Assembly (NCBI RefSeq): GCF_011386835.1
Contig: NC_088791.1
Coordinates: 9,734,998-9,798,997 of the forward strand
Length of the DNA stretch: 64,000 bases
DNA from: Chrysemys picta bellii
Lineage: Eukaryota > Chordata > Testudines > Emydidae
Direction of reading: 5' to 3'
Under the pieces are notes generated by a model. That model had not been told where the DNA came from. It made no database searches and worked only from the letters and a program-made list of their open reading frames with translations. Both the position numbers and the translations under genes were made by a program. Of the stretch, positions 46 to 47,724 are shown piece by piece; position 1 is the first letter of the stretch; every line of letters starts with the position of its first letter.

Positions 46-182
46 GCAGTTGTTGTAGCCATGTTGGTCCCAGGCTATTAGAGAGACAAGGCAGGGGAGG
101 TAATATCTTTTATTGGACCAACTTCTGTTGGTGAGAGAGACAAGCTTTCGAGCTTCACAGAGCTCTTCTTCAGGTCTCACCT
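46..182 (-). mobile_element. Penelope-like element terminus, family 2
   Basis: On the minus strand this reads as a short retroelement end: a hammerhead-like core, then AATAAAAGATATTACC and a tail ending near GGCTACAACAACTGC. Related copies lie on the plus strand at 19664-19765 and 47362-47497. The architecture (CTGAAGAAG, stem, GAAAGCTT, AATAAA) is shared with the family 1 copies that flank a GIY-YIG-bearing Penelope body at 22587-23470, which is why I assign it to Penelope-like elements. No open reading frame is present and no clear target duplication was found. Confidence 0.65.
137..178 (-). ncRNA. Hammerhead-ribozyme-like motif in PLE terminus (family 2)
   Basis: Minus strand, 5' to 3': stem I strand GAGAC, CTGAAGA, an extra A, stem II GAGCT with a six-base loop and AGCTC, GAAA, GC, TT, then GTCTC, which pairs with GAGAC. 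All core positions fit the hammerhead consensus (position 7 may be any base) except the extra A before stem II. Stem III would be a single G-C pair with no loop, which fits action as a dimer. Penelope-like elements are known to carry hammerheads in their terminal repeats. Cleavage activity is inferred, not shown. Confidence 0.6.
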
Positions 183-538
183 TCAAATACTGTGAATGTA
201 GTTCTGTATCCTCTGATATTGTTATTTCAGTGAGTTATACAGGTTCTTTTGATCTCACGGCAGTTAGTAACAGGATACAGAAAGCTTTTGCCTTCAGGTC
301 ACCGGCTTTGAAATAAATCCAGAATAGGCCAACTGAAGGTTGTCGCCATTTGACAGCTGTTGGGTGGCCTATGTGAAATGGGCTACAATTAGACAGGTGT
401 CCAAGTCAGAGCTGGTTCTCTTCTCTTATCTGTCTCAACAGAGAGTGGAAGGACTGTTAAGGTGGTAATGGGGTACATTTTACCACTGCAGCCCACCCAG
501 TGCCCTGTTCTGTGCATAGGAGACATGACTGATTTTCT
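183..538. other. No recognised feature
   Basis: Apparently unique AT-moderate sequence. I see no coding signal, repeat family or RNA gene here. It ends in a CTTT-rich run that supplies the left target duplication of the next element. Confidence 0.5.
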
Positions 539-551
539 TTCTTTCTGTGTA

Positions 552-648
552 AAAACAACAAGGAGTCCGGTGGCACCTTAAAGACTAACAGATTTATTTG
601 GGCATAAGCTTTCGTGGGTAAAAAATCCACTTCTTCAGATGCACGACA
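552..648 (-). mobile_element. Solo Penelope-like terminus (family 1) with 13-bp TSD
   Basis: The 97-bp insert is flanked by identical 13-bp copies of TTCTTTCTGTGTA at 539-551 and 649-661. On the minus strand it begins GTCGTGCAT, goes straight into a hammerhead-like core and continues through AAATAAATCTGTTAGTC and the conserved GGTGCCACCGGACTCC segment. The same segment bounds the Penelope body at 22587-23470. This is a 5'-truncated insertion carrying only the element end. Confidence 0.8.
602..642 (-). ncRNA. Hammerhead-ribozyme-like motif in PLE terminus (family 1)
   Basis: Minus strand: GCAT, CTGAAGA, extra A, GTGG...CCAC as stem II, GAAA, GC, TT, ATGC. GCAT and ATGC pair as a perfect 4-bp stem I. 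Stem II is 4 bp with a long loop. The predicted cut is after the second T, before ATGC. The extra A after CTGAAGA is shared with all other copies. Confidence 0.6.
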
Positions 649-741
649 TTCTTTCTGTGTAGTGCTCCAAAGTCAATGTCCTTCACAAGTACTGAAATTA
701 AATGACTGTATGAGAGACAGAATTGGGAGTTGTTGTTTTTT

Positions 742-1350
742 TTTAAAAAGACACTTCAGATAGAGCTGGCTGAAAAATGGGGAGAGGGGGATTCCGTAGA
801 AAAAAAGTGATTTTATTTTTTCCAATTGAAAATTTGACTACTGAAAAATGTTGATGGGGAAACCAAAACATTTTGGCCTCAAAACCAAAATTCGTCTGAA
901 AACTGAAATTTTGATTTGGAAATGCTACCATAGTGTCTCAGGAGAGTTGTAACTCAGGTGTCTCATGTTCCTGTTCTCATCTATAGGTCAGGCTCCCTAA
1001 TTGGACTACATCTCCCATTATGCATCACAGTCTCCCCTCTTGAAGAAGGGAGCTGGTGCATCATAGGTGTCCCTGACCCTAGTGCATCATGGGAGATGTA
1101 TTCTGGCCTAGGAGCCCAGCCCATAGTGGAGAGTGGGGACATAAGGTAATTGAACTACAGCTCATGTCGGCCATTACAGCATCATATCCGAACTGAAATA
1201 TTTGGGGGTTTGGGGGTATTGAGTGTGTTTTGACAAAAATTTTGAAATTTTCCATGGAAAGTGGCAGTTGTTGTGAAAACACCTCATTTACCCGAAAAAC
1301 TAATTTTCAGTTGAGAAATGATTAAGACAAAAATATTCTGACTAGCCCTC
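742..1350 (+). repeat. Unclassified interspersed repeat with GAAAA-rich flanks
   Basis: An A/T-rich stretch full of GAAAA, AAAATTTTGA and similar words (742-930) is followed by a block with TACATCTCCCATTATGCATC and TGCATCATGGGAGATG, then GGAGCCCAGCCCATAGTGG, then another AAAATTTT stretch. The same order occurs at 42336-42640. I do not recognise the family. There is no coding frame, so it may be a non-autonomous DNA element. Confidence 0.5.
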
Positions 1351-1511
1351 ACTGCAGTGCTGAACCAGGAAGATCATTAAAATATATACACATGATTCCA
1401 GCTCCATTGATCAGAAGAAGGGGGGTTCTTGTGGCTAAAGCATTGGATTGGGGTTCAGGAAATCAAGGTTTAGCCTCTAGCTCCGCAACAGACTCCCTGT
1501 GTAATTTTTTT

Positions 1512-1705
1512 TTAATATGGAGATATACCTATCTCATAGAACTGGAAGGGACTGTGAAAGGTCATTGAGTCTAGTCTCCTGCCTTCACAGCAAGACCAAA
1601 TCCTGTCCCTGACAGTTTTTTGCTCTAGATCCCTAAGTGGCCCCCTCAAGGGCTGAACTCGCAACCCAGGCCAATGCTCAAACCACTGAGCTATTCCCTC
1701 CCCGC
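1512..1705 (-). mobile_element. tRNA-derived SINE with CR1-like 3' part
   Basis: Read on the minus strand it starts GGGAGGGAATAGCTCAGTGG (a tRNA-type A box), has GGGTTGCGAGTTCAGCCC as a B-box-like segment, then a unique middle and a 3' part reading GGAAGGTCCCTTCCAGTTCT-type sequence shared with CR1 3' ends. This design is that of the tortoise Pol III (Cry) SINEs. A second copy is at 4620-4808. Confidence 0.8.
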
Positions 1706-2524
1706 AAGTTGGGCAAGTCACATGGGACCAGATTTTCAAAGGTGCTCAGCCCCCAATTTGCTGATCTCTTTTGAAAATCTGGGCTTGACTGAGGGTGGTC
1801 TCTCTCTCTCTCACTCTGTGTGTGTGTCTGTGTGTCATTTCCCCATGTGCAGCTGTGTAATGCAGCAGTTAGCACAGAGCTAGACCGAGCAGACAGGAGA
1901 CTTGCTCTGCAAGGTTTCCTGCCCAGCAAAACATTATGACTTGTTCTAGCCATTGTCCATGACTGAAAAGTCAGTTCAAGGGCAAAAACGAGAAGCCAGA
2001 AAGCGTTTTTAAAACCAGCCGCTGTTCCCGAAAGCAAATGCAGGCTTCCATCAGCCATAGTCTAAGAGCACAAAGATTTGTATCCTGATCCAGGCCAATT
2101 GCTGAGCTAAGCTCAGAGGGAAAAGTTGCACCCCAGATTCTGGAGCTGGCTGGCAACCAGCAGCCACCCTTTACAAGCTGAGAATATTTGGAACACAGCT
2201 GCTTGCAGGCCACCCCCACTTCCCTGGTTTATGTGCCTATGGCAGAAGATGCAATGTTGGGCTACTCTGTTAGCTCCTCTTCAGCCCTGGAAGGCCCCTC
2301 CATCAGTGATATGGTTAGGGGCCTGTTAAGATGGGTTCCTGGCTCCTTGCTGCTCAGGGAAAGGGTCAAGTTCCAGCATCTTCCAGTGCAACGACGGTAC
2401 AAACAAAGTAAAACTTTCTGAAGCTTGGGAACAATGGGAGCTGCTGCGTGTTGAGAACTTTTGCAAATCTGGCCTCTGCTTGGATGATTAAAGGGGAGCA
2501 ATGCACAGCTGGTTGGAATTCTTT

Positions 2525-2615
2525 GGATGACATTTTTTTTTTCATTGAAAAATGGGGGCTGGCTGAAAGTGAAATTTGTCATGAAAAGAATTGGTTTTGA
2601 CAAAAAACAATGAGG
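2525..2615. repeat. GAAAA-rich interspersed repeat fragment
   Basis: Contains TTTTTTTTTTCATTGAAAAATG and GTGAAATTTGTCATGAAAAG-like words matching the flanks of the repeat at 742-1350. Fragmentary. Confidence 0.4.
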
Positions 2616-2639
2616 GTTTTCATTTTGAGTCTGGGGGCT

Positions 2640-2830
2640 TTCGACAAAATCTCCTGGGCAGCAAAATCAATCCTTTCCCAGCCAGCTGGAAAGCTGAGTT
2701 CTTTTGAAAATCTGGCCATAAGTGACTGGTCAAGTTCACCCTGGAAGAGCATAGCAGGGTCAGAAGCTGACCCTGTATCTCCTGAACCCCAGCCCAGTGC
2801 TCTAACCAGCTCACATTGTGTTCTGATCTC
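2640..2830 (-). mobile_element. MIR-like SINE, degenerate
   Basis: The minus strand carries the usual MIR layout in decayed form: a GAGCACTGG-type head near 2800, then the CCTGTGTGACCTTG-like core represented by CCAGGGTGAACTTGACCAGTC. Strongly diverged. Confidence 0.4.
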
Positions 2831-2879
2831 AGTGACACCAGTGTAATTCTGAGTAATTCCACTCACATCAATAGAAATA

Positions 2880-3565
2880 CACTAATTCCTCACTTAAAGT
2901 GGTCCCAGTTAACGTTTCGTTGTTACGTTGCTGATCAATTAGGGAATATGCTCGTTTAAAGTTGCGCAATGCTCCCTTCTACCATCATTTGTCAGCTGCC
3001 TGCTTTGTCCACTGCTTGCTAGCTGGTGGGGGCTTGGAACCAGGGTGGACCGGCAGCCCCCGTATCAGATCCCCCCATCAGCTCCCCGCTCCCCTAAGTT
3101 CCCTGTGCAGCAGCTGTGTCCCTCCCCCCACTGCCATGTGCTGCTCCTGCCCTCTGCCTTGGAGCTGCTCCCCGAGACTCCTGTGCGGGGGGGAGGAGGG
3201 AAAGAAAAGGGGGGCTCATGTCAGGGTGTCTCCCTTCCCCTGCTGCTGCACCCTGCTTACCCCATCTTCCATAGAGGGGGGGGAGGGGAGACAGACCAGG
3301 ACTCAGGACGGAGGGAGCTTGCAGCAGCTGCATCTCAGCAAGCTGATCTAATTAACAAGGCAGTGTACTTAAGGGAAATGCGCATATCTCCCTCCATTCC
3401 TGCTGCCTTCTGTAGAGAGAGAGTTAATCCTTGAGGGCTCAGCCAATTGCTTGTTCATCATTTGGCAGTGAGGGAAATATCCCACCCTCTGACTCCTCCA
3501 CCTCAACCAAGCTTCACAATCATCGTCACTGTGTACCAGTATTAAATTGTTTGTTTAAAACTTAT

Positions 3566-3627
<62 letters not shown>

Positions 3628-3780
3628 ATATAGTCTTTTGTCTGGTGAAAAAAATTTCCCTGGAACCTAACCCCCTCATTTACATTAATTCTTATGGGGA
3701 AATTAGATTTGCTTAACATTGTTTCGCTTAAAGTCGCATTTTTCAGGAACATAACGACAACGTTAAGTGAGGAGTTACTG
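2880..3780. mobile_element. Tc1/mariner-type DNA element with TA target duplication
   Basis: The ends are inverted repeats: CACTAATTCCTCACTTAA on the left and, read inward from the right, CAGTAACTCCTCACTTAA (16 of 18 identical). The dinucleotide TA flanks both ends (2878-2879 and 3781-3782). The 901-bp interior has no transposase frame, a GC-rich core near 3040-3310 and a compound microsatellite. It is a non-autonomous mariner-type element. Confidence 0.75.
3568..3628. repeat. Compound (TG)n(TA)n(CA)n microsatellite
   Basis: About 14 TG units, then 10 TA units, then CA units to 3628. The whole run is alternating purine-pyrimidine and the TG and CA arms are mutually complementary, so the tract can fold on itself. 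It lies inside the mariner-type element. Confidence 0.95.
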
Positions 3781-3835
3781 TACTCTGTAATTAGACAGAC
3801 TCTGGCCTCTTCTTGGGCTTCTTCTGTCCTTCCTA

Positions 3836-4072
3836 ATGGATTTTGTCTTTCTCTTCTCCCAACTCTGTTCCCTCCATTCCTCTAGGTGCCAGTGTCTTCT
3901 CTCCCTCCCACACACATGTGGTGTGAGAGCCTTCTCCTCTGCAGCTCCTGCTGTCTGGAACAGTCTCCCAGCATCTCTCGAGCATTGTTTCTTCAGTCTC
4001 CACCTATCTTTGACTATAAAACGTACGTTATCTTTTTTTCCATTGTTTATGCTGCCGTTGCTGGCCTTATGA
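3836..4072 (+). pseudogene. L2/Rex1-type LINE reverse-transcriptase C-terminal remnant
   Basis: The plus frame includes HTCGVRAFSSAAPAVWNSLP, the signature found just downstream of the reverse transcriptase domain in L2-clade and related LINEs, followed by a leucine-rich end. Only this short C-terminal part is left and the frame continues into unrelated sequence. The family match is from a motif alone, so the clade is uncertain. Confidence 0.55.
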
Positions 4073-4145
4073 CTGAATGTCACTGTTTTTGCACCACTGC
4101 TTTATGTAGCTCATTAATGTTATTATCTGCATTGGAATGTATTCT

Positions 4146-4350
4146 AGAGGGTCCGGCTGAGATCAAGGGCCCATTGTGCTAGGTGCTGTACATACACACA
4201 TTGAGATATGGTCCCTGGAGCTAACAGTCCAAATAGACAAAGACTGGGAGGGGGAGCAGAGGCGAAATGATTTACCCAAGATGATAGAGCAGAGATGGCA
4301 CTAGAACACAGGTTTCTTGCAGCCTACTTTGGTGCACTCTTCATTAGACC
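4146..4350 (-). mobile_element. L2/MIR-related repeat, minus orientation
   Basis: Contains CCCATTGTGCTAGGTGCTGTA, then GAGGCGAAATGATTTACCC and a TCTTCATTAGACCACCCTG end. These are reverse-strand words of an L2/MIR-type 3' tail and MIR body. Similar modules are at 27405-27490 and 48720-48965. Confidence 0.5.
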
Positions 4351-4411
4351 ACCCTGCAGCTTAAATCATATGTTGCCTTGCATTTAACTCCGAAACACAT
4401 ATAAGATACAA

Positions 4412-4525
4412 CTCTTTCCCCTCTGAAGCACCTGGCATTGGCCACTGCCAGAAGACAGGCTACGGAGCTAGATGGACCTTTGATCTGACCCAGTCTGCCC
4501 ATTCTTATGTTCTTGTTAATATGAA
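4412..4525 (+). mobile_element. CR1/L3-type LINE 3' end
   Basis: The plus strand includes CACCTGGCATTGGCCACTG, CTAGATGGACCTTTGATCTG and a tail ATTCTTATGTTCTTGTT that resembles the short 8-bp terminal repeats of CR1-like LINEs. No coding portion remains. Confidence 0.55.
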
Positions 4526-4619
4526 AGGTCCCAGTCTAGCTAACGTCTTATTGTATTTGTACCTTGGAAATCTGACTCCATCACTGTTCAAGTCATTGTA
4601 AAATGGCACAAACACTGAA

Positions 4620-4808
4620 TATATGGAGAGATACCTATCTCATAGAACTGGAAGGGACCCTGAAAGGTTATTGAGTCCAGCTCCCTGCCTTCACTAGCAG
4701 GACCAAGTACTGATTTTGTCCCAGGTCCCTAAGTGGCCCTCTTAAGGATTGAGCTCACAACCCTGGGTGTAGCAGGCCAATACTCAAACCACTGAGCTAT
4801 CCCTCCTC
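4620..4808 (-). mobile_element. tRNA-derived SINE with CR1-like 3' part
   Basis: Second copy of the family at 1512-1705. On the minus strand it has GGGATAGCTCAGTGGTTTGA (A box), GGGTTGTGAGCTCAATCC (B box) and a CR1-like tail ending ATCTCTCCATAT. It is nearly full length. Confidence 0.8.
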
Positions 4809-5249
4809 CTGAACAAACTGAATAGGTAGGAACCCAAAGAAAAGTTAAGATCACGTCCATAAGGCTTTTTCTATTCACATAGATCCTCAGAGGGGTTTTA
4901 TTTTTTCTATCCTTTTAAGCCCTGATCTGGATTCAACAGCTGATGCTCTGAACATTTTTGTAATTTCTATGAAATACTCTGAAATGACAGGCTTCTATCA
5001 GTTTAAAAAGGAGAAAACTAGATGTGATGAATTCATCTTCTGATGCCATGGTAGCCATTCTCCCAGGAGATTGGAAAATACATTTGTAAGGAGTATAGGT
5101 TGACAAATGCATTTTAAACTTTATTGCATCTTTTCTCCATTTAAAAAATAAATAAATAAAACCTCAAAGCCTGAATGTAGCGCTGATGAAACAAGAGGGA
5201 ATGAGACTGAAGATTTAAGCTTTCCCTTTATGTGTAGAAAAATGGCAAG

Positions 5250-5370
5250 GCAGTGTGGTCTAGTTGATAGGACATGGGATTAGGAGCAGGGTTCTATTCC
5301 TGTCTCTGCTACTGACTGGCAATATGACCTTGTGCAAGTCACTTTCTGTCTCTGTGCCCGTTCCCTCCCT
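5250..5370 (+). mobile_element. MIR-type CORE-SINE
   Basis: Plus strand: CAGTGTGGTCTAGTTGATAG head, CTACTGACTGGCAATATGACC and CTTGTGCAAGTCACTTTCTG core, then TCTGTGCCC. Truncated at the 3' end by or next to the following MITE. Confidence 0.75.
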
Positions 5371-5377
5371 ACCCTTT

Positions 5378-5678
5378 GGCCTGGTCTACACTGCAGGGAT
5401 CGATCTAAAATACATAACTTCAGCTACGAGAATAGCGTAGCTGAAGTCGACGTATCTTAGATCAACTTAGATTGATTTACTTCGCATCCTCGCAGCGTGG
5501 GATCGACGGCCACCGCTCCCCCATCGACTCCGCTTCCGCCTCTCGCCCTGGTGGAGTTCCGGAGTCGACGGGGAGCACGTTCGGGGATCGATTTATCGCG
5601 TCTAGACGAGACGTGATACATCAATCCCCGATAGATTGATCATTACCCGCCAATCCGGCGGGTAGTGTAGACATACCC
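5378..5678. mobile_element. Harbinger-type MITE
   Basis: Ends are GGCCTGGTCTACACT and, inward from the right, GGGTATGTCTACACTACCCG. The trinucleotide TTT sits on both sides (5375-5377, 5679-5681). An internal hairpin has arms ACTTCAGCTACG and CGTAGCTGAAGT. Family members at 25351, 55503 and 62016 show TAA or TTA duplications, as expected for PIF/Harbinger. Non-coding. Confidence 0.75.
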
Positions 5679-5829
5679 TTTGTCTGTCTAACTTGTTAGC
5701 TCTTCAGGGTAAAAGGCTATTTCTTGCTTTGCATGCATCAATGCCTGGGAGGAACTACAACTGGAAAAGGCTGTGGAGTTCAGTCAGACAAAGGAGGGGA
5801 GAAAGGAAGTATTACTGTCCCATCTTACA

Positions 5830-6020
5830 GCTGGAAAACGTAATGGCCTGATTTTCAAAGGATCAGAGTGCCCACAAATTCCAGCAAAGTTCGTGGGAGC
5901 AGCAGGCACTTCTAAAAATCTGCCCATAAGTGACTTATCCAGGGTCACACAGGAAGTCACTAGCAAAGCCAGAGATGGACCCCAGGTCTCAGTCCAGAGC
6001 CTGAACCATATTCTGGAGTT
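5830..6020 (-). mobile_element. MIR-like SINE, minus orientation
   Basis: Contains AAGTGACTTATCCAGGGTCACACAGGAAGTC, the reverse complement of the MIR core, then GACCCCAGGTCTCAGTCCAGAGCC, the reverse of its tRNA-like head. Diverged. Confidence 0.6.
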
Positions 6021-6029
6021 GAAACTCTC

Positions 6030-7005: not shown

Positions 7006-7009
7006 GAGA

Positions 7010-8680: not shown

Positions 8681-8699
8681 GATTGTATATCCTACGGAG

Positions 8700-18109: not shown

Positions 18110-18340
18110 AAGGTTAGAGCACTGGCCTAGAACATGGGACACCTGGATTCAATTCCCGGCTCTTCTATGGACTTCCTGTGTGACCCTGGGCATGTCACTC
18201 AGCCGCTCCGTGCCTCAGTTTCCCATCTCGAAACTAGTGGTACTAATGCTTCCCTACCTCTCAGGGGTGTTGTGAGGGTAAATACATTAAAGATTGTGAA
18301 GCAGCATGTAAGCCATAAACATCATTCTTATTATTATTTA
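18110..18340 (+). mobile_element. MIR-type CORE-SINE
   Basis: One of the best copies in the window: GTTAGAGCACTGGCCTAGAA, GATTCAATTCCCGGCTC, CTTCCTGTGTGACCCTGGGC, TGCCTCAGTTTCCCATCTCG, GGTGTTGTGAGGGTAAATAC and ATGTAAGCCATAAACATCAT. Confidence 0.9.
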
Positions 18341-19663: not shown

Positions 19664-19765
19664 CAGACCTGAAGAAGAGCTCTATGTAAGCTCAAAAGCT
19701 TGTCTCTCTCGCCAACAGAAGTTGGTGCAATAAAATGTATTACCTCCCCCATCTTGTCTCTCTAT
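19664..19765 (+). mobile_element. Penelope-like element terminus, family 2
   Basis: CAGACCTGAAGAAGAGC through CCAACAGAAGTTGGTGC, AATAAAATGTATTACC and CTTGTCTCTCTA. It matches 46-182 in the opposite orientation. The distal tail is lost. Confidence 0.65.
19665..19706 (+). ncRNA. Hammerhead-like motif, G12 mutated
   Basis: AGAC, CTGAAGA, extra A, GAGCT...AGCTC, then AAAA in place of GAAA, GC, TT, GTCT. Stems I and II are intact. The G to A change at 19694 hits an invariant catalytic residue, so this copy should be inactive. Confidence 0.5.
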
Positions 19766-22586: not shown

Positions 22587-23470
22587 AGACGTTTCAGAGG
22601 GGCGGCCGTGTTAGTCTGTTTCAGCAAAAACAACGAGGAGTCTTGTGGCACCTTAAAGACTAACAAATTTATTAGAGCATAAGCTTTCGTGGGCTATGAC
22701 CCACTTCTTCAGATGTACGGAGTGAAAATTACAGCAGGCAGGCATAAATCTACAGCACAAGAAAAGATGGGAGTTGCCTTACCAAGTCGGGGGGTCAATG
22801 ATTCAATCAGGGTGGATGTGTTCCATTTCCAACACTGGTCAAGAAGGTGTGAATGTCAACAGAGTAAAAATTACTTTTTGTAGTGCTAACGAGGTGGATG
22901 GCCCATACTCAACAGTGGATGGGAGATTACTTCTTGTAGTGACCCAGCCATTCCCAGTCTTTATTCAGGCCTAATTTGATGGTGTCACGTTTGCAAATGA
23001 ATTCCAGCTCTGCAGTTTCTCATTGAAGTCTGTTTTTTTAGGTTTTTTTTGTTGAAGAATGGCCCTTTTAAGTCTGAAATTGAGTGTCCAGGGAGGTTAA
23101 AATGCTCTCCCAGTTTTTTGAATGTTATAATTCTTGATGTCTGCTTTGTGTCCATTTATTCTTTTGTACATGGCAGAGGGGCATTGCTGGCAAATGATGG
23201 CATATATGACATTAGTGGATGTGCAAGTGAACGAGCCCCTTATGGTGTGGCTGATGTGGTTAGGTCCTGTGATGGTGTCACTTGAGTAGATATGTGGACA
23301 GAGTTGGCAACGGGGTTAGTTGCAGGGGATGGTTCCTGGGTTGGTGTTTCTGTTGTGTGGGGTTTGGTTGCTGGTGAGTATTTGCCTCAGGTTGTGGGGG
23401 CTGTCTGGAGCTTGTGCTCTAATAAATTTGTTAGTCTTTAAGGTGCCACAAGACTCCTCGTTGTTTATGC
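22587..23470 (-). pseudogene. Penelope-like retroelement, GIY-YIG region with inverted termini
   Basis: Both ends carry the same ~50-bp segment in inverted orientation: AACAACGAGGAGTCTTGTGG at 22630 and its complement at 23464. Between them the minus strand encodes a decayed GIY-YIG endonuclease region: TSTNVIYAIICQQCPSAMY followed by INGHKADIK, then GEHFNLPGHSISDLKG, then RETAELEFICKLDTIKLGLN. Known Penelope-like proteins end in such a domain. The segment between CPSAMY and INGHKADI, where the catalytic Arg of the family lies, is missing, and stops and frameshifts are frequent. The reverse transcriptase part is absent. It is dead. Confidence 0.8.
22677..22716 (-). ncRNA. Hammerhead-like motif at 3' end of PLE body
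   Basis: Minus strand: ACAT, CTGAAGA, extra A, GTGGG...CCCAC, GAAA, GC, TT, ATGC. Stem II is a perfect 5 bp. Stem I keeps three pairs with one A-C mismatch. It is in the sense orientation of the GIY-YIG frame, as reported for Penelope-like hammerheads. Confidence 0.6.
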
Positions 23471-24635
23471 TGTAGAAGGAAACCCATTTCTAGAGCATTC
23501 AGCTTTGCTGAAGAAATGGTTCCGAGAAGGTCTGTCTAAAGCTGGATTGAAAAGCAGTCGGTGTCAAGCTGAGATCTGAGTGGAGGAAATGTGAAGACGA
23601 GGCTGGGATGTTAGCAGTGATAAGACGAGTCCTCGCCCGTCTGCCCCTTGCCTGTTGCTTGCTCCTCTCCTTGGTGGGGGAGCTACGGGGAAGAGACGGA
23701 GTGAGGCAGAGCCTCGGGGGGAAAGGCCGAGTGGGGGCAGGTCCTTGGGGCGGAATGCGGGTGGAGCCACAGTCTGGGCACCGGTGGCCCCCCACTTCTA
23801 GGGAGCTTCACTTCCGGTGCTCCAAAGGCAGCAGGCTGGCGTGCCTCCGAAAGGAGGTGACCCACGCGTCCATGGCATTTGCCCTCCTGCGTGGCCAGTG
23901 TTTTCGGGGGAGGCTTAGCATCCCCAAGCCTCTTATCCACGCCACCCACGCTCAGCAGCAAACAAAACAGTGTCCACACCTGCGCTACGTGCCAGGACTG
24001 AGACATCAACTTAATGCCTAAATAGCCCTGGAAATTAACTCCCCTTTTTCCTCATCTTCTACCAACCTGCACATAGCGACTGCGGAAGGAAGAATTCACA
24101 AGCCCAAAGAGGCAAAGGCACCTGCTTGAATACATATGGCTAAGAAGGCCAAATATAATACACTCAGCATGGCCCATATGATCACTGTTGGCCCTGTAAA
24201 ATGTCCAGTAGTTGCGGGGAAGGGGAGTACAGGGGTTGTGTAAATATGAGCGCCAGAAGGGTTCTTCCTACTTTACACAGCACTGGTTCGACTTTGCTTG
24301 GAATAGCGGCACAAGATCAGTGTTTTTGACTCTTGTGTGTTTTTCTTAAATCCCCAGCTTCTGGAATCAGGATATTACTTGACAGTCTTGTCTTTCATTT
24401 AAAATAGTAAGTAAGTTACTAGGCCTCACAGTTGTGGAGAAGAGTTTGAAAATGTGAAACCTCAAGGCTCCAAACACAACAGGTTTTAGTTTTAAAATCT
24501 CATGGATTTTTTTAAGCCAACCTGATGATTTTTGAGGGCTGCGCTCATGATTTTGGAATGTTTGGGGTTGGCAATACTACAGGATTGTCTAGAGACCAAT
24601 TACCTCAGTAACCCAACTAGAAACATGTAGGGCCT
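23471..24635. other. Apparently unique sequence
   Basis: 23600-24010 is GC-richer with a 137-residue chance frame that has no domain signature and overlaps an equally long frame on the other strand. No exon called. Confidence 0.35.
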
Positions 24636-24644: not shown

Positions 24645-24890
24645 GGCAGGATGGTCCAGTGGTTAGGGCACTAGATTAGGGCTTGAGAAACCTGGTTTCA
24701 ATTTCCTGCTCTGCCACAGACTTCCTATGGGACCTTGGGAAAGTCACAGTCTCTCTGTGTGCCTCACTTCTGCATTTATACAATGAGGAGAACAACACTG
24801 CCCTACCTCCCAGGGGTGCTGGGAGGATAAATACATTAAAGATCACGCAGTGTTCAGATATTTTGATGATGGGAGTTTCAAAAACAGGTA
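24645..24890 (+). mobile_element. MIR-type CORE-SINE
   Basis: GGATGGTCCAGTGGTTAGGGC, TTCAATTTCCTGCTCTGCC, CTTCCTATGGGACCTTGGG, CCTACCTCCCAGGGGTGC and GAGGATAAATACATTAAAG. Near full length. Confidence 0.9.
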
Positions 24891-25350
24891 GGGCCTGATT
24901 TTCTGAAACTGCTGAGCACCAGTTCACAGGAATTCAGCCCCCTTTAAGATGTCTTGAATTGGGCATCCAAGATCACAAGTCACTTTTGGAAAATCCTGGA
25001 CAGCACGTACAGTTTTGGGCACCATATGGGAGGCCCCTGTCATCTCGTTCCTTTTAAGCAGAAGACGCCATTGAAATCAATGCCTACAAATCAGTGATAG
25101 GATGTAACCCATAGAAAAGAGATAAATATCCTAGAGGTAAAGGGCTGCATGGTGACGTTTGAATCCAGATCTAAAGTTTTTCAAAGTCTGGGTATGTTTG
25201 GTCCAGGGTTTTCAGTTCAGATTTGGGGAGAACAGCTTGGCTGATAAAGGGCCTGGAGAGAGTGGGAGGGTGTCAGGGACACAGCAACACACTCCGTTGT
25301 TTACACTGATATAACTAAGAGTGGATCTGTCTCTGTGGGTCAGTGTCTAA

Positions 25351-25614
25351 GGGCATGTCTTCACTACCGGCCGGATCGGCGGGCAGCGATCGATCCAGCG
25401 GGGATCGATTTATCACGTCTAGACGCGATAAATCGATCCCCGAGTGCTCTCCCGTTGACTCCTATACTCCAGCTTGGTGAGAGGTGCAGGCAGAGCCGAT
25501 GGTGGGGCGGCAGCAGTCGACTCACCGCAGTGAAGACACCGCGGTGAGTCCATCTAAGTATGTCGACTTCACTTAGATCGATTTCCTCCCTCCACCCCCA
25601 GTCTAGACCAGGCC
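25351..25614. mobile_element. Harbinger-type MITE with TAA TSD
   Basis: TAA lies on each side (25348-25350, 25615-25617). Ends are GGGCATGTCTTCACTACCGG and, from the right, GGCCTGGTCTAGACTGG. An internal near-perfect palindrome has 18-base arms at 25400-25417 and 25424-25441 around TCTAGA. Same family as 5378, 55503 and 62016. Confidence 0.85.
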
Positions 25615-26699: not shown

Positions 26700-27146
26700 G
26701 GGATATGTCTACACTGCATTGTAAATCTGGACTCAGGCTCAGGTTTGAGTCCAAGCCCCCGTACCGTCCACGCACAAATCAGTCTCACTCAGGTCAGCAA
26801 GCCCACAGGACCTGGCTCCTAGAACCCGCCTGGAGGACAGGATGTGTGTGTCTGATCCCAAGTCCTGCTGAGACTCAAGCCCTGTCATTTTGCAGTGTGG
26901 ATGCAGCTCAAGCCTGCCTCAGACCTGAGTCAGAAGGCCTGTGTAGTGCAGTATGGATGCATCAGTGTGGTTTGGAGACCCAAGTCCAACAACTGTTGGA
27001 CTTGGGTCTCCAAACCACACTGATGCATCCATACTGCACTACAGGTTTACAATAGAGGGTGGATGCTCAAACATGGCCGTGGACACACCGAGTCCACAAG
27101 CATGGGTCCCACAGACCCGGGTTTACAAAGCTGTGCAGACAGACCC
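26700..27146. mobile_element. MITE with a perfect 49-bp internal palindrome
   Basis: Outer ends pair imperfectly: GGGATATGTCTACACTGC and, from the right, GGGTCTGTCTGCACAGC. The interior contains a perfect inverted repeat at 26943-26991 and 26994-27042. No protein is encoded. The ends resemble the Harbinger-type MITEs of this window, but the TTA on the right (27147-27149) has no match on the left. Confidence 0.6.
26943..27042. repeat. Perfect 49-bp inverted repeat, 2-nt spacer
   Basis: Left arm 26943-26991 starts GTAGTGCAGTATGGATGC. Right arm 26994-27042 is its exact reverse complement. I compared all 49 positions and found no mismatch. The spacer is AC. Confidence 0.97.
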
Positions 27147-27490: not shown

Positions 27491-28725
27491 TGATGGGTTT
27501 ATTTTTGCCCCTTTTGAAATGCATTGGCCCTGATTCTCCCTACACCACTCTGGCAGCGGAAAGCAGTTTTACATTATATTACCTCCATTTTAAGATCCCG
27601 TTAAACAGCCAGAATGGTGTAAGAGGGGCCTTAATGTAAGAACTGAGCCTAGAAATAACCAAGTTTCCCCTGGTTTTTTATTTCCCTTTTCAGGCCTGAA
27701 ACCCCCCTCCAAGATAATGTCATTGGGAAGGGGGGGGGGAAGAACCATTTCAATGGAACACTATGATTGTGATTTAAGCCCCCAGGCGCTGGGAAATGCG
27801 GAGTTAAGGCTCCCACGGGCCAGTGTTATATGATCATGTAATGAAAGACCCTATGTCCTACCATAATGACTCCACAGACCAGGTCAGAGTTACGGTTGCC
27901 CGGGGAGCTTTAACTCTCCGCGGCTTGATTTCTGTGGCCTGGGATAACAACCTGATGGTGTCCTTGTCTCGCACTCGTGCGTAATGTAAGCACTGTAACA
28001 ATTATCCAGGGCTCTAATCATTTGAAGCTATTTGATGCAGCAAATAATATGCCATGTGACACCAGGCAATTAGTGGTCTAATTCGGGCCACAATGCCACA
28101 GACAGTGGTTCATAGAAGGATCCTCCATTTATCTGAGAGCCAGAGCTATCATGACAAGCACTATGGTACAAACACAATGCTAGGCAGCAGGCGAGGATGA
28201 GTGCATTGAAGGATGCCTGACTGCATCCGCGGTGCTATGGAAAGACAAGGGAACGTGTAGGGGATGGGTGCTGGGAGGGGTAAGAAGAGCTCAGCCGATG
28301 TGTGCTTTCTGCCTGGTCTCTGGTGCTGTCTCTCGCTCTTTCTCACTGTCCCCTTCACTCTCTTTCTATCCCCCGCTTGCTGCCTCTGAATTGAGCCCTG
28401 CATTGGGGACTGCACGGAGAACCACATCAGACCCCCTTTAAGCTCCCAGCTTTTTCTGTTTCCCAGTGTTCTGTCCTGGCATGTGAAACCTCCGGGTTTC
28501 CCAGCAGACACAGGGCGAGGTCGTTAATGGGCGTAACAGTGGGGAAGATAGGCACATTACAGCTGGCAGCCCAAATATAAATATAAGGATTGCTCACTGC
28601 ATTAAGTGCACCTGTGAACGGAGCAGAGTGCTGAGAATTAGGGAACCTAGGCTGAAATGCTGGGCCCATAGAAATCAATAGGAGTGATTGCTGTTGACTT
28701 CAAAGAGGCCAAGATTTCACCCTTC
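27491..28725. other. Repeat-poor block, possible conserved non-coding element
   Basis: 27820-28110 is unlike any repeat in the window and contains ATGTAATGAAAG, ACAATTATCC and GGCAATTAGTGG. No exon is supported. Regulatory function is a guess. Confidence 0.25.
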
Positions 28726-39648: not shown

Positions 39649-39656
39649 TCTGGTCA

Positions 39657-39822
39657 CAGAACCGGCGCTAGGCATTAGCAGACTAAGCAATTGCTTGGGA
39701 CCCCGAGCAGTTCAAGGGGCCCCCTATTCACTTTTTATTATAAGAACTTGCCTGGTTTAGTATTGGTGGGGTGGGGGGAGATATACTTGCTAAGGGTCCC
39801 CTATGGGCTAGCACTGGCACTG
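39657..39822. mobile_element. hAT-type MITE, perfect 8-bp TSD
   Basis: TCTGGTCA at 39649-39656 and 39823-39830. Ends CAGAACCGGCGCTAGGC and, from the right, CAGTGCCAGTGCTAGCC. 166 bp, non-coding. Confidence 0.85.
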
Positions 39823-40300
39823 TCTGGTCAGTTCCTCCAGGGTGCTGCAGGAAGGGGCATTGGTAGTCAGTGGAGGGCACTCTACTGAACCCAATGCCTT
39901 TCATGATGCCGTGGGGCACTATGGTGCTGGAAGACCCAGCTTGAAACCAGCCTCCAACTACATGTGCTCCTTAGAGAGTCTCCTGGCACTTTCTGTGAGA
40001 GCAGGGATAATAACGCCAGTGTCCTGGTCAAATTCCAACTTCAGTCATTACATTCTGCCTTCCGAAATCCAACTGCAGCTGTAATTTGATCCTGCTCTAT
40101 TTCCCACCCTACACTGTTGCGTAGCATTGTTCTATGTTGCGAAACAGCTGCTATGTTCCACCCCAGAGGTGGCTGCTTTTCAGTGACACATTCCCCATGT
40201 ATAGTTTCGGGAAGGTGTTACAGACAGACAAGTCATTATAACATGCTGAAATTAGTTCAACAAAGGGACAGAGAAGTAACTGGTAGCCTAGGCTATAGCA

Positions 40301-41111: not shown

Positions 41112-41119
41112 CTATAGCG

Positions 41120-42090
41120 CTACTCAGTTTCCTGGAGCACTCCTGATTGAATTCAATAGCTCTGTTTAAAACACACAATGGTCACAGATACAGGGTGGTA
41201 CCTTCAAGGAGGAGAGTTTTAATTGCAACCACTTCTAAAGGTTCACCTGCCCTGTAACAAAAGACAAGAAACCTCCACCGCTGGCTACTTCACTCTGCCC
41301 CCCCTTCCGGAGCGCCAGCATTCATCAGTTCCAGGAAGATCCAATAACACTCTAAAGGCTGGACGTGAAATTGGATTATCTGGGCCTCCGAACTGCGAGG
41401 AGGTAACTCCCCTGAAAGGCTGACAACAACCTCGCCACTTTGCAATTGCTGCGCGGACCTCTGCTGAACCCTGAGCGGCAAAGCACATGGTTAGTCCGTT
41501 TCCCCTTGCAGCTGGTTTGCTGTAAATTGATTACATGTGTCAGCTTACTTTTTTTTTTTTTTAATGTTGTGAATGGAGGCGCACTGCAGGTGTGTGTGAA
41601 CTGCAGTAGTGGCTCTGCTACCCTCGCGCCCTGTTATTCTATGCTTTGTGCTTATCAGCACTAACAATGAATCAGATGTGCCAAATCAGACAGAAAATAT
41701 TGCTTGATAAACCCGAAGTCCGTATGCAGGGTCTAATCTATCCCTCCATCAGCTCGCTTATCCTATCTACCAACAGGCACTGGGGAGACAAAGAGAGACA
41801 ACAGGTAACAATCACAGTATCATGGTAACCAGGAGAGAGAAGCTCAAGTGGCTTGTACGCTATCAGATGCCGGAGATGGGCGCATAGCCACACACACCGC
41901 TTCCCCGGGCTGTAAGCAATAACCAGACACAAAAGGGCACGTCACAGTGGAATAACAGCGTTATTATTATTTGTATTCATGTAGTGTCGGCAGATTCCAG
42001 TCAGAGCAGAACCCCACTCCTTTTCTTCAAAGCTATAAGTCGTCTGGCTATCTGAGAGACCCGGCTATGGCCCTCACCCCACCACAGCAC
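41120..42090. other. Apparently unique sequence
   Basis: No exon or repeat family seen. Confidence 0.35.
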
Positions 42091-42143
42091 CTGCATTTGA
42101 CAGAGAGTCCCGTGGCACCTTTAAGACTAAGAGATGTATTGGA

Positions 42144-42183
42144 GCATAAGCTTTCGTGGGTGAATACCCACTTCGTCAGACGC
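42144..42183 (-). ncRNA. Hammerhead-like motif, left arm of inverted PLE pair
   Basis: Minus strand: GCGT, CTGACGA, extra A, GTGGGT...ACCCAC, GAAA, GC, TT, ATGC. Stem I pairs with one G-U. Stem II is six perfect pairs. Confidence 0.6.
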
Positions 42184-42195
42184 ATGTAAATTCGT

Positions 42196-42235
42196 GCGTC
42201 TGATGAAGTGGGTATTCATCCACGAAAGCTTATGC
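42196..42235 (+). ncRNA. Hammerhead-like motif, right arm of inverted PLE pair
   Basis: Plus strand: GCGT, CTGATGA (the canonical core), extra A, GTGGGT, ATTC, ATCCAC, GAAA, GC, TT, ATGC. Predicted cut between 42231 and 42232. The best core in the window. Confidence 0.65.
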
Positions 42236-42335
42236 TCCAATACATCTGCTGGTCTTAAAGGTGCCACAGGACTCTCTGTTGCTTTTTACAGATCCAGACA
42301 AACACGGCTACCCCTCTGATACTTGCATTTGACAG

Positions 42336-42640
42336 TGAGGCACCACTGTCATGAGACTCCCATGATGCACCAGGTGGCTTAGTCAGAGGGGAGACCACCG
42401 TGCATCATGGAAGAGGCAGTCTAGCCAAGGAGCCCAGCCCATGGGCGAGAATGGGAACCTGAAACACCTGAACTACAATTCCCATGAGGCACCACCACAG
42501 GATAGGCCAATGCAGTTTAGTGTTGAACTGACTCTAAATAAAATGTTTTAGCTCATTTTAACAAACCAAAATTTTCCGGACAGAAAATCAAAAAAGTTTG
42601 GCAAAATCAAATTTTTTTCCCGTGGGAGTCAAGGTTCTCA
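42336..42640 (+). repeat. Second copy of the unclassified repeat at 742-1350
   Basis: CTCCCATGATGCACCAGG, GTGCATCATGGAAGAGGC, GGAGCCCAGCCCATGGGC and AACTACAATTCCCATGAGGC, then AAAATTTTCCGGACAG and a GAAAA-rich end. Same order and strand as the first copy. Confidence 0.5.
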
Positions 42641-42665
42641 GCCAGGCAGCATTATTAGACTATGC

Positions 42666-45046
42666 CAGGGGTCGGCAACCTTTCAGAAGTGGTGTGACGA
42701 GTCTTCATTTATTCACTTTAATTTAAGGTTTCGCGTGCCGGTGATACATTTTAATGCTTTTTACAAGGTCTCTCTCTATAAGTCTCTATATTATATAACT
42801 AAACTAGTGTTGTATTGTAAAATAAACAAGGTTTTCAAATGTTTAAGAAGCTTCATTTAAAATTAAATTAAAATGTTGATCTTACGCCGCCGGCCCGCTC
42901 AGCTCACTGCTGGTCTGGGGTTCTGTTCACCTAGGCCGGCAGTGGGCTGAGTGGGGCTTGCAGCTGGGACCCCGGCTGGCAAGGGTCCGGCAGCCAGAAC
43001 CCCAGACCGGCAGCGGGCTGTGCGGGGCCGGCGGCCGGGATCCCAGACTGGCACTGGGCTGAGTGGTTCAGCGCACTGACGCTCAGGGGTTCCATCCGCC
43101 GGCTCCTGCTAGCCTGGATCCCGGCTGCCGGACCCGCTCAGCCCACTGCCGGTCTGGGGTCCTGGCCCTGCCAACATACAGTGGGTACCTACCTTCTCCC
43201 TGGTTCTGGCCCATTCTCTTCCTATCTCTGCACTGAGCTGAGGGTGGGAGTGCACCGAGCACAGGGTTGGGGTGTAGGGTCTGGCCAGGAGCTAGAATGA
43301 GGGAGGGGGCTCTTACCTGGGCAGCTCCCATTTGGTGCAAGGGGTGCAGGTGGAATGTGGGGTGTGTGTGCAGGAGCTCCCGTTTGGTGCTCAGGGTGGA
43401 GGTGGGGATGTGGGGAGTGCAAGAGTCAGGATGTGGGGGGTACATGGAGTGTGGGGGGGTTGGGTATGTCGGGGGTGGTGCAAGAGTCAGGGCAGAGGGC
43501 TGGGGGCATGTGAGGGGGTGCAGGTGTCAGGGCAGGGGGGAGCTGGTATGTGTGGAGGTGCCAGAGTCAGGGCTGGGGTCATGGGGGCGGGGGGGTGAAG
43601 GAGTCAAGCAGAGGTCTGGGTGTGTATGAGGGGGGTACAGGGCTCAGGGCAGGGGCCTGGGGGGTGTACGGGGCACAGGGCTCAGGGCACGGGCCGGGGG
43701 GGTGTGCGGGGCTGTGGGGCTCAGGGCAGAGGGCTGGGTGCATGTGAGGGGGGGTAAGGGCTCAGGGCAGAGGGCTGTGTGTGTGGGGGGGTCAGGGCAG
43801 AGGGGTGTGTGAGGGGGGTCAGGGCAGGGGGCTGGAGGGGATATGCCCCTATTCCACCCCCCTTCCCCTAGCCCAGCCCCCACCATGCCCTAGCCCTGCC
43901 CCCACCCTGCTCCCATCCACTCCCTCCTACTTCCCGCCCCCTGACTGCCCCCCTCAGAATCCCCAACCCCCCCACTCCTTGTGCCCTGACTACCCCCTTC
44001 TGGGACCCCTGCCCCTAACTGCCCCCCAGGACTCCACCCCCTATCTAAGCCTCCCTACTCCTTGTCCCCTGACTGCCCCCCTAGGACCTTACCCCCCACC
44101 TGTCCCCTGACTGCCCTGACCCTTATCCACACCCCTGCCCCCAGCCAGACCCCCAGGACTCCCATGCCTATTCAACCGCTCCCCGCCCTCTGACAGGACC
44201 CCCAGAACTCCTGACCCATACAACCCCCCCCCGCCCCCTGCCTGCCCCAACCCTCCTCCACACCCCTGCCTCCTGACAGGCCCTCCCCCAGAACTCCTGA
44301 CTCATCCAATCACCCCCAGCTCCTTGTCCCCTGACCACCCCCTCCAGAGACCCCCACCCTAACTCCCCCCCAGGCCCCTACTTGCTCCCTGTCCCCTGAC
44401 TGCCCTGACCCCTATCCACCCCCCGCCCCCTGACAGACCCTGGGACTCCCATGCCCCATCCAACCCCCCCTTCTCCCTGACTGCCCCCTCCAGAGACCCC
44501 CCACCCCCAACCACCCCCCCCGGGATCCCACCCCCTATCCAACCCACCCTGGTCCCTGTCCCGACTGCCCCCACCCCTAATCCAACCCGCCCCGGACCCG
44601 GACCCCTTACCATGAGGCTCCTAGCAGTATGCTCTGCTCTGCGCAGAGCCAGACATGCTGCCCCGCAGGAGCGGGCAGCCCCGCCCCTCAGAGCGCTGCG
44701 CGCGTGGCGGCACGGCTCCAGGGAAGGAGTCAAGGCGGGGGAGGGGCTGGCGGCTTGCTGCGCTCGGCCGGGCGCTCCAGCCCGGGAGCGCGGACCCCAC
44801 GGCTTGCCGCGCTGGGAGAGTGGGGCCATTTGCCCACCCCTGCATTAGGGTGTGCCTGGGCACACCTGGCACACCCCGTGCGCACGCCTATGCTTCTGCC
44901 ACCTGCCCCCCGCGGGGGCGGAGGAGCAGAGGGCGCAGAAGAGCGGGCCGGGCTGGGCAGGATTTTTAATGGCACGCCGCTGCCTGCCAGGAAAAATCAG
45001 CTCGCGTGCCGTCTTTGGCACGCATGCCATAGGTGGCCGACCCCAG
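42666..45046. mobile_element. 2.4-kb hAT-type element with mirrored G-rich and C-rich halves
   Basis: Ends CAGGGGTCGGCAACC and, from the right, CTGGGGTCGGCCACC. Target duplication GACTATGC (42658-42665) and GACAATGC (45047-45054), 7 of 8. Interior 43220-43850 is G-rich on the plus strand and 43860-44600 C-rich. 44620-44830 is CpG-dense. No transposase is readable. TTTGCCCACCCCTGC at 44830 is the end word of the 40301 hAT, so part of the interior may be nested. Confidence 0.8.
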
Positions 45047-45264
45047 GACAATGCCATAGTGCAGCTGTTGACAGGGTTCTGTTCGTGGGACTTGAGGGTG
45101 ACCTTGATTTCACAGCGGGGAAGCTGTCGCTTATGTCATCTCTGATGCTTGTACAGATAGACTATAGCTAAGTGGAAGGGCAGTAGGAGGAGGAAATCGG
45201 AAATCATGGTGCATAGTCTTGTTTCTCTTTATCTGAGTCAGTGTGGGTGATTCATGTCTATTCC

Positions 45265-46095
45265 TAGACAAATTAGAAGATTGGGCCGAAAAAAACCTGA
45301 TGAGGTTCAACAAGGACAAGTGCAGAGTCCTGCACTTAGGACGGAAGAATCCCATGCACTGCTACAGACTAGGGACCGAATGGCTAGGTAGCAGTTCTGC
45401 AGAAAAGGACCTAGGGGTCACAGTGGACGAGAAGCTGGATATGAGTCAACAGTGTGCTCTTGTTGCCAAGAAGGCTAACGGCATTTTGGGCTGTATAAGT
45501 AGGGGCATTGCCAGCAGATCGAGGGACGTGATCGTTCCCCTTTATTCGACATTGGTGAGGCCTCATCTGGAATACTGTGTCCAGTTTTGGGCCCCACACT
45601 ACAAGAAGGATGTGGAAAAATTGGAAAGAGTCCAGCGGAGGGCAACAAAAATGATTAGGGGTCTGGAGCACATGACTTATGAGGAGAGGCTGAGGGAACT
45701 GGGATTGTTTAGTCTCCAGAAGAGAAGAATGAGGGGGGATTTGATAGCAGCCTTCAACTACCTGAAGGGGGGTTCCAAAGAGGATGGAGCTCGGCTGTTC
45801 TCAGTGGTGGCAGACGACAGAACAAGGAGCAATGGTCTCAAGTTGCAGTGGGGGAGGTCCAGGTTGGATATCAGGAAAAACTATTTCACTAGGAGGGTGG
45901 TGAAACACTGGAATGCGTTACCTAGGGAGGTGGTGGAGTCTCCTTCCTTGGAGGTTTTTAAGGCCCGGCTTGACAAAGCCCTGGCTGGGATGATTTAGCT
46001 GGGAATTGGTCCTGCTTTGAGCAGGGGGTTGGACTAGATGACCTCTTGAGGTCCCTTCCAACTCTGATATTCTATGATTCTATGATTCTATGATT
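45265..46095 (+). pseudogene. CR1 LINE 3' part, best-preserved copy
   Basis: An uninterrupted plus frame runs from [18 protein letters not shown] through [58 protein letters not shown] to LDKALAGMI and stop (45998). The 3' UTR ends TATTCTATGATTCTATGATT, the CR1 8-bp terminal repeat. The catalytic domain upstream is missing (5'-truncated near 45265), so it cannot be active. The intact C-terminal frame marks it as the youngest CR1 here. Confidence 0.92.
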
Positions 46096-46464
46096 TCACC
46101 CCCTTTACAGAGCTAGTTCCCAGCCATTTCTCTTTCATGAACGCATGCTGGGTAATAACACGAGAGGACTCCACGTTTTTAAAGCTAAACTGGACTTTTA
46201 TTAAGAGAACTATTAACAGGGACTTTGTAATTGCAGCTAGCATTCCTGGCATGCGCAAACAGCCTGATTTCCTGCTGTCTCCTCCAAACTCTTCCCTCCT
46301 GTGGCGTGTGCTCTTCCCGCCAGACTCCATGCAGGTTGCTACATCTGATGCTTCTCATTTTTGAACAGGGACTGGGGAGAGAGGTGATGTGTACACAGTG
46401 CATGCAAGTGACACTATGCTGGACTTGAGGAGAGGCCTAGAGCAGCCATCTCAGCCCATTTAAT
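46096..46464. other. Apparently unique sequence
   Basis: No exon or repeat family seen between the CR1 and the next hAT. Confidence 0.35.
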
Positions 46465-46472
46465 AGTGGCTA

Positions 46473-46743
46473 CAGGGCCGGCGCTTCCACTAGGCGACCC
46501 TAGGTGGTCGCCTAGGGCGGCAGGATTTGGGGGGCGGCATTTTGCTGCCCTTGGCGGAAATTCGGTGGCAGGAGGTCCTTCCACTCTGGGTCTTCGGCGG
46601 AAATTCGGCAGTGGGTCCTTCACTCGCTCCGGGACCCGCCGCCAAAGTGCCCCGAAGACGCGGAGCGGAAGGACCCCCGCCGCCGAATGCTCAGAGGAGG
46701 AGTGCTGCCGCCTAGGGCGGCAAAAACCCTGGCGCTGCTCCTG
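46473..46743. mobile_element. hAT-type MITE
   Basis: AGTGGCTA (46465-46472) and GGTGGCTA (46744-46751), 7 of 8. Left end CAGGGCCGGCGCTTCC; right end read inward CAGGAGCAGCGCCAGGG. 271 bp, GC-rich, non-coding. Confidence 0.8.
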
Positions 46744-46751
46744 GGTGGCTA

Positions 46752-47360
46752 AAATATGATAGGCCCAGTCCACTAAGTTCTGATCTGGATCTGAGCTGCT
46801 ACAACATTCTGGGAACTGCCCTTTGTTTGCTGAACTCTTGTGCGAGAGCCAATCACCAGACACGGAAACAACCCAAATGGAAAATATTTACTGACTAGTG
46901 TATGGAAAACAAAGTTCATTTCAGCAGCGGCTACGCTGTGGAGCTCACTGATTAATGGAGAAGATGGTTTAATCTAAGCAGCTGTTCAGTGAAGGGTATT
47001 AAGGTAAGAATACTGATCGCGAGACTCTTCCAGGGCAGGTGTTTGGATTATGATGGCAGCCGATTATACCAAGGTGGAAACTGAGACAAAGAGGAGTGAA
47101 GTGGCTGGACCTAGGTTATCCAGAAAGAACCTGTCCTACTACCACTCCACTGATTTTTAGAGCCCTGCAAACCTGAAAATATCCACTTTATATCCACAGA
47201 CTGTGTTTGCAGATTGGATGCGGATACAACATTTACTGTATTACTGCATTACATAGGTGCTTTAATTAGTGTTTAATTGCAGTGTAAACATTTGGGCTTG
47301 GGCTGGAGCCTGGCTCTAGGACTCTACCTTGTATTTAGCTGTGACACTGAGTACATTTCC
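46752..47360. other. Apparently unique sequence
   Basis: No gene or repeat family recognised. Confidence 0.35.
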
Positions 47361-47361
47361 C

Positions 47362-47497
47362 AGACCTGAAGAAGAACTCTGTGTAGCTTGACAGCTTGAC
47401 TCTCTCACCAACAGAAGTTGGTCCAATAAAAGATATGACCTCACCCACCTTGTCTCTCTAATGCCCTGGAACCTACATGGCTACAACAACACTGCAC
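47362..47497 (+). mobile_element. Penelope-like terminus, family 2, decayed hammerhead
   Basis: AGACCTGAAGAAGAACTC, AACAGAAGTTGGTCCAATAA, AAAGATATGACCTCACCC, CTTGTCTCTCTAATGCCC and ATGGCTACAACAACACTGCA. At the hammerhead position GAAA has become GACA and stem II is broken, so only the outline remains. Confidence 0.65.
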
Positions 47498-47640
47498 ACA
47501 GTTTGTTATGGAGTCAGGTACTGATAGTGGAAGGGTCAGGACAGGGCAGCCTTAATAACAAGGGGAAGCTAACCAAGCAAAACACGCCTGTGGAAGAAGA
47601 AAGCAGGGGGGGTTGAACCTTAGACACCATAGCAAATGGA

Positions 47641-47723
47641 GCAAAGAGTCCTGCGGCACCTTATAGACTAACAGATGTATAGGAGCATGAGCTTTCGTGG
47701 GTGAATACCCACTTCTTCGGATG
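47641..47723 (-). mobile_element. Solo Penelope-like terminus (family 1), TSD split by a later hAT
   Basis: Left duplication CATAGCAAATGGA at 47628-47640. The right copy starts at 47724 as CATAGCAAA, is interrupted by the hAT at 47733-48169 and its duplication, and ends as TGGA at 48178-48181. The insert matches 552-648. Confidence 0.85.
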
Positions 47724-47724
47724 C
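47685..47724 (-). ncRNA. Hammerhead-like motif with mutated core
   Basis: Minus strand: GCAT, CCGAAGA (U4 changed to C), extra A, GTGGGT...ACCCAC, GAAA, GC, TC, ATGC. Both stems are perfect, but the invariant U4 is lost. Confidence 0.5.

Follow-up and report, generated by a model that had tools for sequence, protein, structure and literature searches.

Short segments within a 64,000-nucleotide (nt) stretch of Chrysemys picta bellii DNA (contig NC_088791.1, positions 9,734,998 to 9,798,997; the whole of this stretch is referred to as the window) had, at the level of sequence, the layout of a type I hammerhead ribozyme without a closed helix III, and this observation was confirmed. They are supported as putative termini of endonuclease-bearing Penelope-like elements. 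It is likely that a minimal type I hammerhead lies about 100 nt upstream of a tail motif near the 3' end of the Penelope insertions, and that these insertions would be made by the two-primer reaction set out below.

A preliminary description, drawn from the letters of the window alone, had listed eight segments in two families, seven with the hammerhead layout and one decayed; the coordinates and strands were correct for all eight. The strict layout test, which was written after the segments had been seen, consisted of a 4-bp (base pair) stem I, CYGANGA, zero or one extra base, a fully paired stem II of 4-5 bp (G-U allowed), GAAA, GC, U, H and the stem I partner; C was permitted at position 4, as needed by the minus-strand copy with its core C at 47720. 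The segments were as follows.

137..178, minus strand: family 2 hammerhead motif; CTGAAGA core, stems GAGAC/GTCTC and GAGCT/AGCTC; strict match, core C at 173; tail motif AACATGGCTAC found 108 nt 3' of the core C.
602..642, minus strand: family 1 hammerhead motif, a single tailless insertion; strict match, core C at 638.
19665..19706, plus strand: family 2 motif with a broken GAAA box (AAAA); fails the strict test; tail motif not found.
22677..22716, minus strand: family 1 motif with one A-C mismatch in stem I; fails the strict test; tailed copy.
42144..42183, minus strand: family 1 motif, tailless arm of a head-to-head pair; strict match, core C at 42179.
42196..42235, plus strand: family 1 motif, tailed arm of the same head-to-head pair; strict match, core C at 42200.
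47365..47405, plus strand: decayed family 2 motif; tailed, with two substitutions in the tail motif; fails the strict test.
47685..47724, minus strand: family 1 motif with CCGAAGA (U4C), a single copy; strict match, core C at 47720; tail motif not found.

Five of the eight segments passed the strict test with Y at position 4, and four with U4; no match was found in 200 dinucleotide shuffles of the window. CUGANGA and UU before the cleavage site were not common to all copies, as 47685-47724 had CCGAAGA (U4 changed to C) and UC instead, and the family 1 stem I GCAU/AUGC was replaced in the copies at 42144 and 42196 by GCGU/AUGC, with a G-U pair. The extra base between the core and stem II was present in all five strict matches, and a viroid offers an earlier example of an additional nucleotide within the hammerhead core, to judge from the title of the published report. 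Stems I and II formed at minimum energy in seven of the eight segments (z-scores from -0.5 to -2.7), but not in 47365-47405 (z +1.9). These z-scores are modest, and would not by themselves have made a convincing case. As had been described, there was no closed, looped helix III: only AGCU lay between A14 and H17, and since this is a 4-nt palindrome, a 4-bp helix III could form between two copies. A search of the PDB by sequence gave no match.

Assignment to Penelope-like elements, also proposed in the preliminary description, was borne out at three loci (L031, L028 and L061), chosen among the upstream stretches found, in which unmended open stretches of 434, 458 and 477 amino acids lay just upstream of the motif (that of L061 stopping 68 nt before the core). 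All three matched a reverse transcriptase domain (RVT_1; 1.6e-6, 1.6e-5 and 1e-9 respectively, above the curated cut-off in one of the three) and a GIY-YIG endonuclease domain (1e-5, 1.7e-4 and 1.4e-4 respectively, one above the cut-off and two within 0.3 bits) in one frame. The GIY-YIG family had at least 87 genome matches among 150 scored of 10,494 candidates. The hallmarks of endonuclease-bearing Penelope elements were also found: inverted pseudo-long terminal repeats (pseudo-LTRs), an optional tail of 30-40 bp, short target duplications and 5' truncation. A start module, AACACGGCTAC (0-2 substitutions), was common to families 1 and 2 and present in four of the eight window copies, located +100/101 after the core C in family 1 and +108 in family 2.

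The genome (a single one, 2.37 Gb in 9,732 contigs) was searched for the core followed within 11-25 nt by CGAAAGCTT, the stems not being part of the pattern. The CTGANGA form gave 27,125 matches (13,518 and 13,607 by strand; control 15) and the CCGANGA form 33,803 (16,872 and 16,931; control 22), counts so far above the controls that chance is excluded. U4C was thus carried by over half of the counted copies (33,803 of 60,928), and this CCGA class lacks the U4 expected of a hammerhead. For comparison, 139,606 Penelope copies have been tabulated for a tortoise genome (PMC11315351).

Close head-to-head pairs numbered 4,134 genome-wide (control 0), and close tail-facing pairs, counted with a pattern of different stringency, 13 (control 0). 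The first 5.44 Mb of contig C1 contained 149 exact-core copies, and all 19 neighbours less than 400 nt apart were head to head. From 60 loci selected for the whole motif, 22 unique head-to-head pairs were picked by script: 21 had a tail on a single arm, one (L019) was without any tail and none was two-tailed. Target duplications of at least 10 bp (10-14 bp) flanked 19 of the 22 pairs, vs. 3 of 462 cross comparisons. The pairs and single insertions of the window were organized as follows.

539..550, no strand: 12-bp target duplication TTCTTTCTGTGT, 3' side of the 602 copy.
649..660, no strand: 12-bp target duplication TTCTTTCTGTGT, 5' side of the 602 copy.
23409..23482, plus strand: family 1 fragment, head to head with the 22677 copy (96.9% identity over 64 nt).
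42092..42103, no strand: left 12-bp target duplication TGCATTTGACAG.
42301..42322, plus strand: tail AACACGGCTACCCCTCTGATAC of the right arm (42196 copy).
42324..42335, no strand: right 12-bp target duplication TGCATTTGACAG.
47628..47636, no strand: 9-bp duplication CATAGCAAA, 3' side of the 47685 copy.
47724..47732, no strand: second member of the 9-bp duplication (CATAGCAAA), on the 5' side of the 47685 element, with which it overlaps.

One pair in the window was enclosed in a single 12-bp target duplication (42092-42335), with a tailless left and a tailed right arm. The fragment at 23409-23482, in which similarity starts about 4-5 nt before the cleavage site, is probably, as read by eye, the tailless arm of the same insertion as 22677; no target duplication was seen by eye around these two.

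Tailed arms numbered 2,653 genome-wide, 1,328 on the left and 1,325 on the right (controls 0), and no two-tailed pair was seen by eye among 100 listed places of this count; independence would predict 352-426 two-tailed pairs, for 5,000 to 4,134 pairs, vs. the 24 two-tailed places counted. Approximately one third of the 4,134 pairs fell in neither tail count, and could have changed tails or spacing, or be tailless pairs. The 3' end of a copy was either behind the tail or, in most cases, within a T-run some 35 nt before that point. Palindromes are known as a class of assembly artefact, and the pairs might be suspected of being such; this is extremely improbable, because within a single pair the flanks of the two arms differ, their 3' ends are unequal and one target duplication is shared by both. 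At two loci further peculiarities were seen. Three tail-facing junctions with a regular spacing of 127 nt (C12:43141727-43142030) apparently form a small tandem array of element tails, and what the tailed arm of L040 seems, by eye, to have lost between stem I and GAAA is only the stem II hairpin, as though the reverse transcriptase had jumped over it.

The covariation of the stems, claimed from the window copies, was upheld in a set of 22 copies (the eight of the window and 14 picked from the 60 loci to span the subfamilies). Six of the nine pairs changed on both sides, 92.9% of the cells in the alignment paired, and the score was 0.430 vs. 0.153 in shuffled alignments (reached by 0 of 500) and at most 0.131 with the structure slid. 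Two of the five measures were unremarkable (“further pair types”, 303 of 500 shuffles, and “change on both sides”, reached by 32 of 500), so that the support comes from the cells and the score. Most double changes corresponded to one split, between family 1 and family 2; inside family 1, one pair changed from G-C to A-U, with the A-C intermediate present.

This internal change was followed in subfamily T2 (6,106 genome copies, control 0). The fourth pair of stem II was, among the first 100 copies listed, A-U in 67 and A-C in 13 with a CCGA core, A-C in 15 and A-U in one with a CTGA core, and four were others; A-U was present in 67 of 80 CCGA copies vs. 1 of 17 CTGA copies (Fisher p 3.9e-9 on 96 copies, taken as independent though some are arms of one insertion). 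We infer that A-C came first in T2, and that the stem was re-paired after the loss of U4. CpG decay was considered as the only source of the T2 CTGA copies and rejected, as 3 CCAA vs. 17 CTGA copies were present among the 100 listed, which decay alone does not explain. The same association between core and pair 4 speaks for another reading, in which the stems serve purely as a hairpin for protein binding or translation control, the likeness to a ribozyme in U4C lineages being a relic. The other core letters were intact in these copies, which argues against a relic, though the search patterns demanded those letters and the direction of change comes from the inference above; retention as a hairpin only is a real possibility, somewhat short of an even chance.

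The 5' ends were studied in the 100 arms of 50 listed pairs, subfamily ties being assigned to T3; the listing admits short centres only, and therefore favours short arms. Of the 67 T3 arms, 45 ended 7 or 8 nt before the core C, one at 9 nt and 21 nearer; the 7 T2 arms ended 6-12 nt before it, and 6 arms matched no subfamily. TATA boxes started at -36 (T3), -38 (T2) and -40 (T1) by hand count, approximately 28-32 nt before the commonest ends, which is the usual distance from TATA box to start site. Other copies extended upstream for hundreds of bases. Ribozyme cleavage was discarded as the source of the 5' ends, since no partner arm read by eye started at the cleavage site; the loci having been chosen for the whole motif, only partner arms can reveal ends made by cleavage.

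These data also bear on the possibility that the hammerhead is retained because the element depends on dimeric self-cleavage to release unit-length RNA from tandem transcripts. The 27,125 full-core matches favour it, and the dimeric action of minimal Penelope hammerheads is already in print, related ribozymes being reported in reviews to cleave as dimers. Nevertheless, 33,803 matches carry U4C, and a type III hammerhead had low activity when its CUGA turn was mutated (PMC9901934), for which reason the U4C copies are, by analogy, probably poor ribozymes. None of the partner arms, as read by eye, has its start at the cleavage site, though the window fragment at 23409 starts 4-5 nt from it. In PAc, a Poseidon-type Penelope-like element of Anolis, mutation of the ribozyme left insertion in vitro normal, and no RNA-seq ends were found at the site (PMC11167929). 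Pairing kept for the sake of cleavage is less well supported, because most copies are U4C and no partner arm started at the site, and an obligate dimeric cleavage seems rather unlikely.

The two-primer model that we favour is as follows. Transcription would be driven by the TATA box and is predicted to start about 8 nt upstream of stem I, so that the RNA from which the short copies are made would carry the ribozyme at its 5' end. Both target strands would be cut by the element protein, about 12 nt apart, and each 3' end would prime reverse transcription on the same RNA, at its tail start site in one case and at its U-run start site in the other. From there the two complementary DNAs (cDNAs) would reach the RNA 5' end or halt in the ribozyme, and would then be joined into a palindrome. 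Cleavage by the ribozyme would be optional, because RNA structure was kept in lineages that had lost the core U4. One-tailedness could follow from using one RNA twice: with the U-run start placed upstream of the tail start, a first use of the former would leave the latter free. A more demanding version, in which an obligate reaction of this kind on a single RNA (tail site plus U-run site) leaves nearly every pair one-tailed, and in which the hammerhead is retained structurally and sets the cDNA end or meeting point independently of cleavage, is put forward tentatively.

Inverted pairs might instead arise by self-priming, the first cDNA folding back at its 3' end and copying itself, as proposed for Adineta Penelope palindromes. 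In 10 of the 22 pairs the 60 nt compared were the same in both arms, and head-to-head is the usual form in Adineta, for which self-priming on an antisense template was suggested (PMC3846280). An arm made by fold-back, however, cannot extend beyond the 5' limit of its template. In nine pairs one arm was clearly shortened (the partial pairs L010, L015, L019, L040 and L064 being excluded as decayed, unclear or not shortened), and the longer arm was, by eye, the tailless one in five (L018, L025, L043, L057 and L065) and the tailed one in four (L033, L039, L041 and L060). These mixed lengths disfavour a snap-back with a fixed first arm, and the stop of the copy at the U-run is not explained by self-priming either. 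It would fit the arm lengths if either arm may come first; overall, self-priming is quite unlikely.

Several results weigh against the two-primer reading and its hammerhead. No Rfam hammerhead match was obtained at the gathering cut-off or at E up to 10, an outcome that the preliminary description had named in advance as counting against the ribozyme; Rfam hammerhead models lean on helix III, which may account for the missing match. The 5' ends of the 20 T1 arms were spread over 8-20 nt before the core C, less sharply than in T3. Three of the 22 pairs (L015, L019 and L040) had no target duplication of at least 10 bp, and some tailless arms (that of the window, L025 and L040) stopped, by eye, before the T-run. 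Places tailed on both sides do exist, the 24 (control 2) having been counted with a looser pattern that did not require the ribozyme; read by eye, some of these at least are mixed or nested. The partner was the single closest arm in 4 of the 22 pairs; at least one arm of another pair was as alike in the other 18, so that the use of one RNA by both arms is not decided by arm identity. Finally, the start sites of PAc in vitro were alike on both strands, and one-tailedness would not be predicted from them (PMC11167929).

Other repeats were noticed in the window. A tRNA-like match at 24645-24716 on the plus strand (Rfam RF00005, 32 bits) overlapped a 183-nt repeat (24661-24843, common with 18112-18294), which is probably a tRNA-derived short interspersed element. 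A further repeat family with internal inverted arms (CTTCAGCTACG...CGTAGCTGAAG) was located at 5396-5683, 25347-25557, 55528-55805 and 62035-62222. Hairpins resembling mir-1677 (28648-28724) and mir-2076 (26948-27036) were well below the Rfam cut-offs, and are probably inverted repeats.

The role of the ribozyme in the element has been called a mystery in a review, and the steps of PAc insertion after the first are still to be validated according to the in vitro study itself (PMC11167929). Thousands of short inverted pairs in one genome make the completion of Penelope insertion a counting problem, the one-tail bias constrains any insertion model, and the U4C lineages with a re-paired stem II are a natural test of whether the element needs the shape of the ribozyme or its cleavage. 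Minimal helix-III-less Penelope hammerheads and inverted pseudo-LTRs with an optional tail on one are already published. The one-tail bias as measured here and the re-pairing of stem II in U4C copies seem new as far as the literature consulted reached, the older Penelope papers and the 2014 and 2017 ribozyme papers lying outside it.

The published minimal Penelope hammerheads (Cervera and de la Pena 2014; Lunse et al. 2017) are likewise type I, without helix III and in the pseudo-LTR, and are present in metazoan genomes in thousands of copies with proposed dimeric action; this comparison follows their description in reviews and titles. In Adineta vaga, Penelope families also have inverted pseudo-LTRs, an optional tail on one of them and predominant head-to-head arrangement, with target duplications, where present, of 8-10 bp; few elements were described there, compared with the thousands of short pairs and the measured one-tail bias of this genome, and fixed-order self-priming is less favoured here than for that species (PMC3846280). 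PAc has a hammerhead at the start of its open reading frame, as here, and two internal 3' start sites bounding a tail of 30-40 bp, and its protein cleaves and extends both strands, as proposed for the turtle insertions; the AACACGGCTAC module of families 1 and 2 fits its AC-rich start site (PMC11167929). The two systems differ in that PAc showed no strand difference in vitro whereas 21 of 22 turtle pairs were one-tailed, and in that the PAc hammerhead was active with the protein whereas over half of the copies counted here were U4C (PMC11167929).

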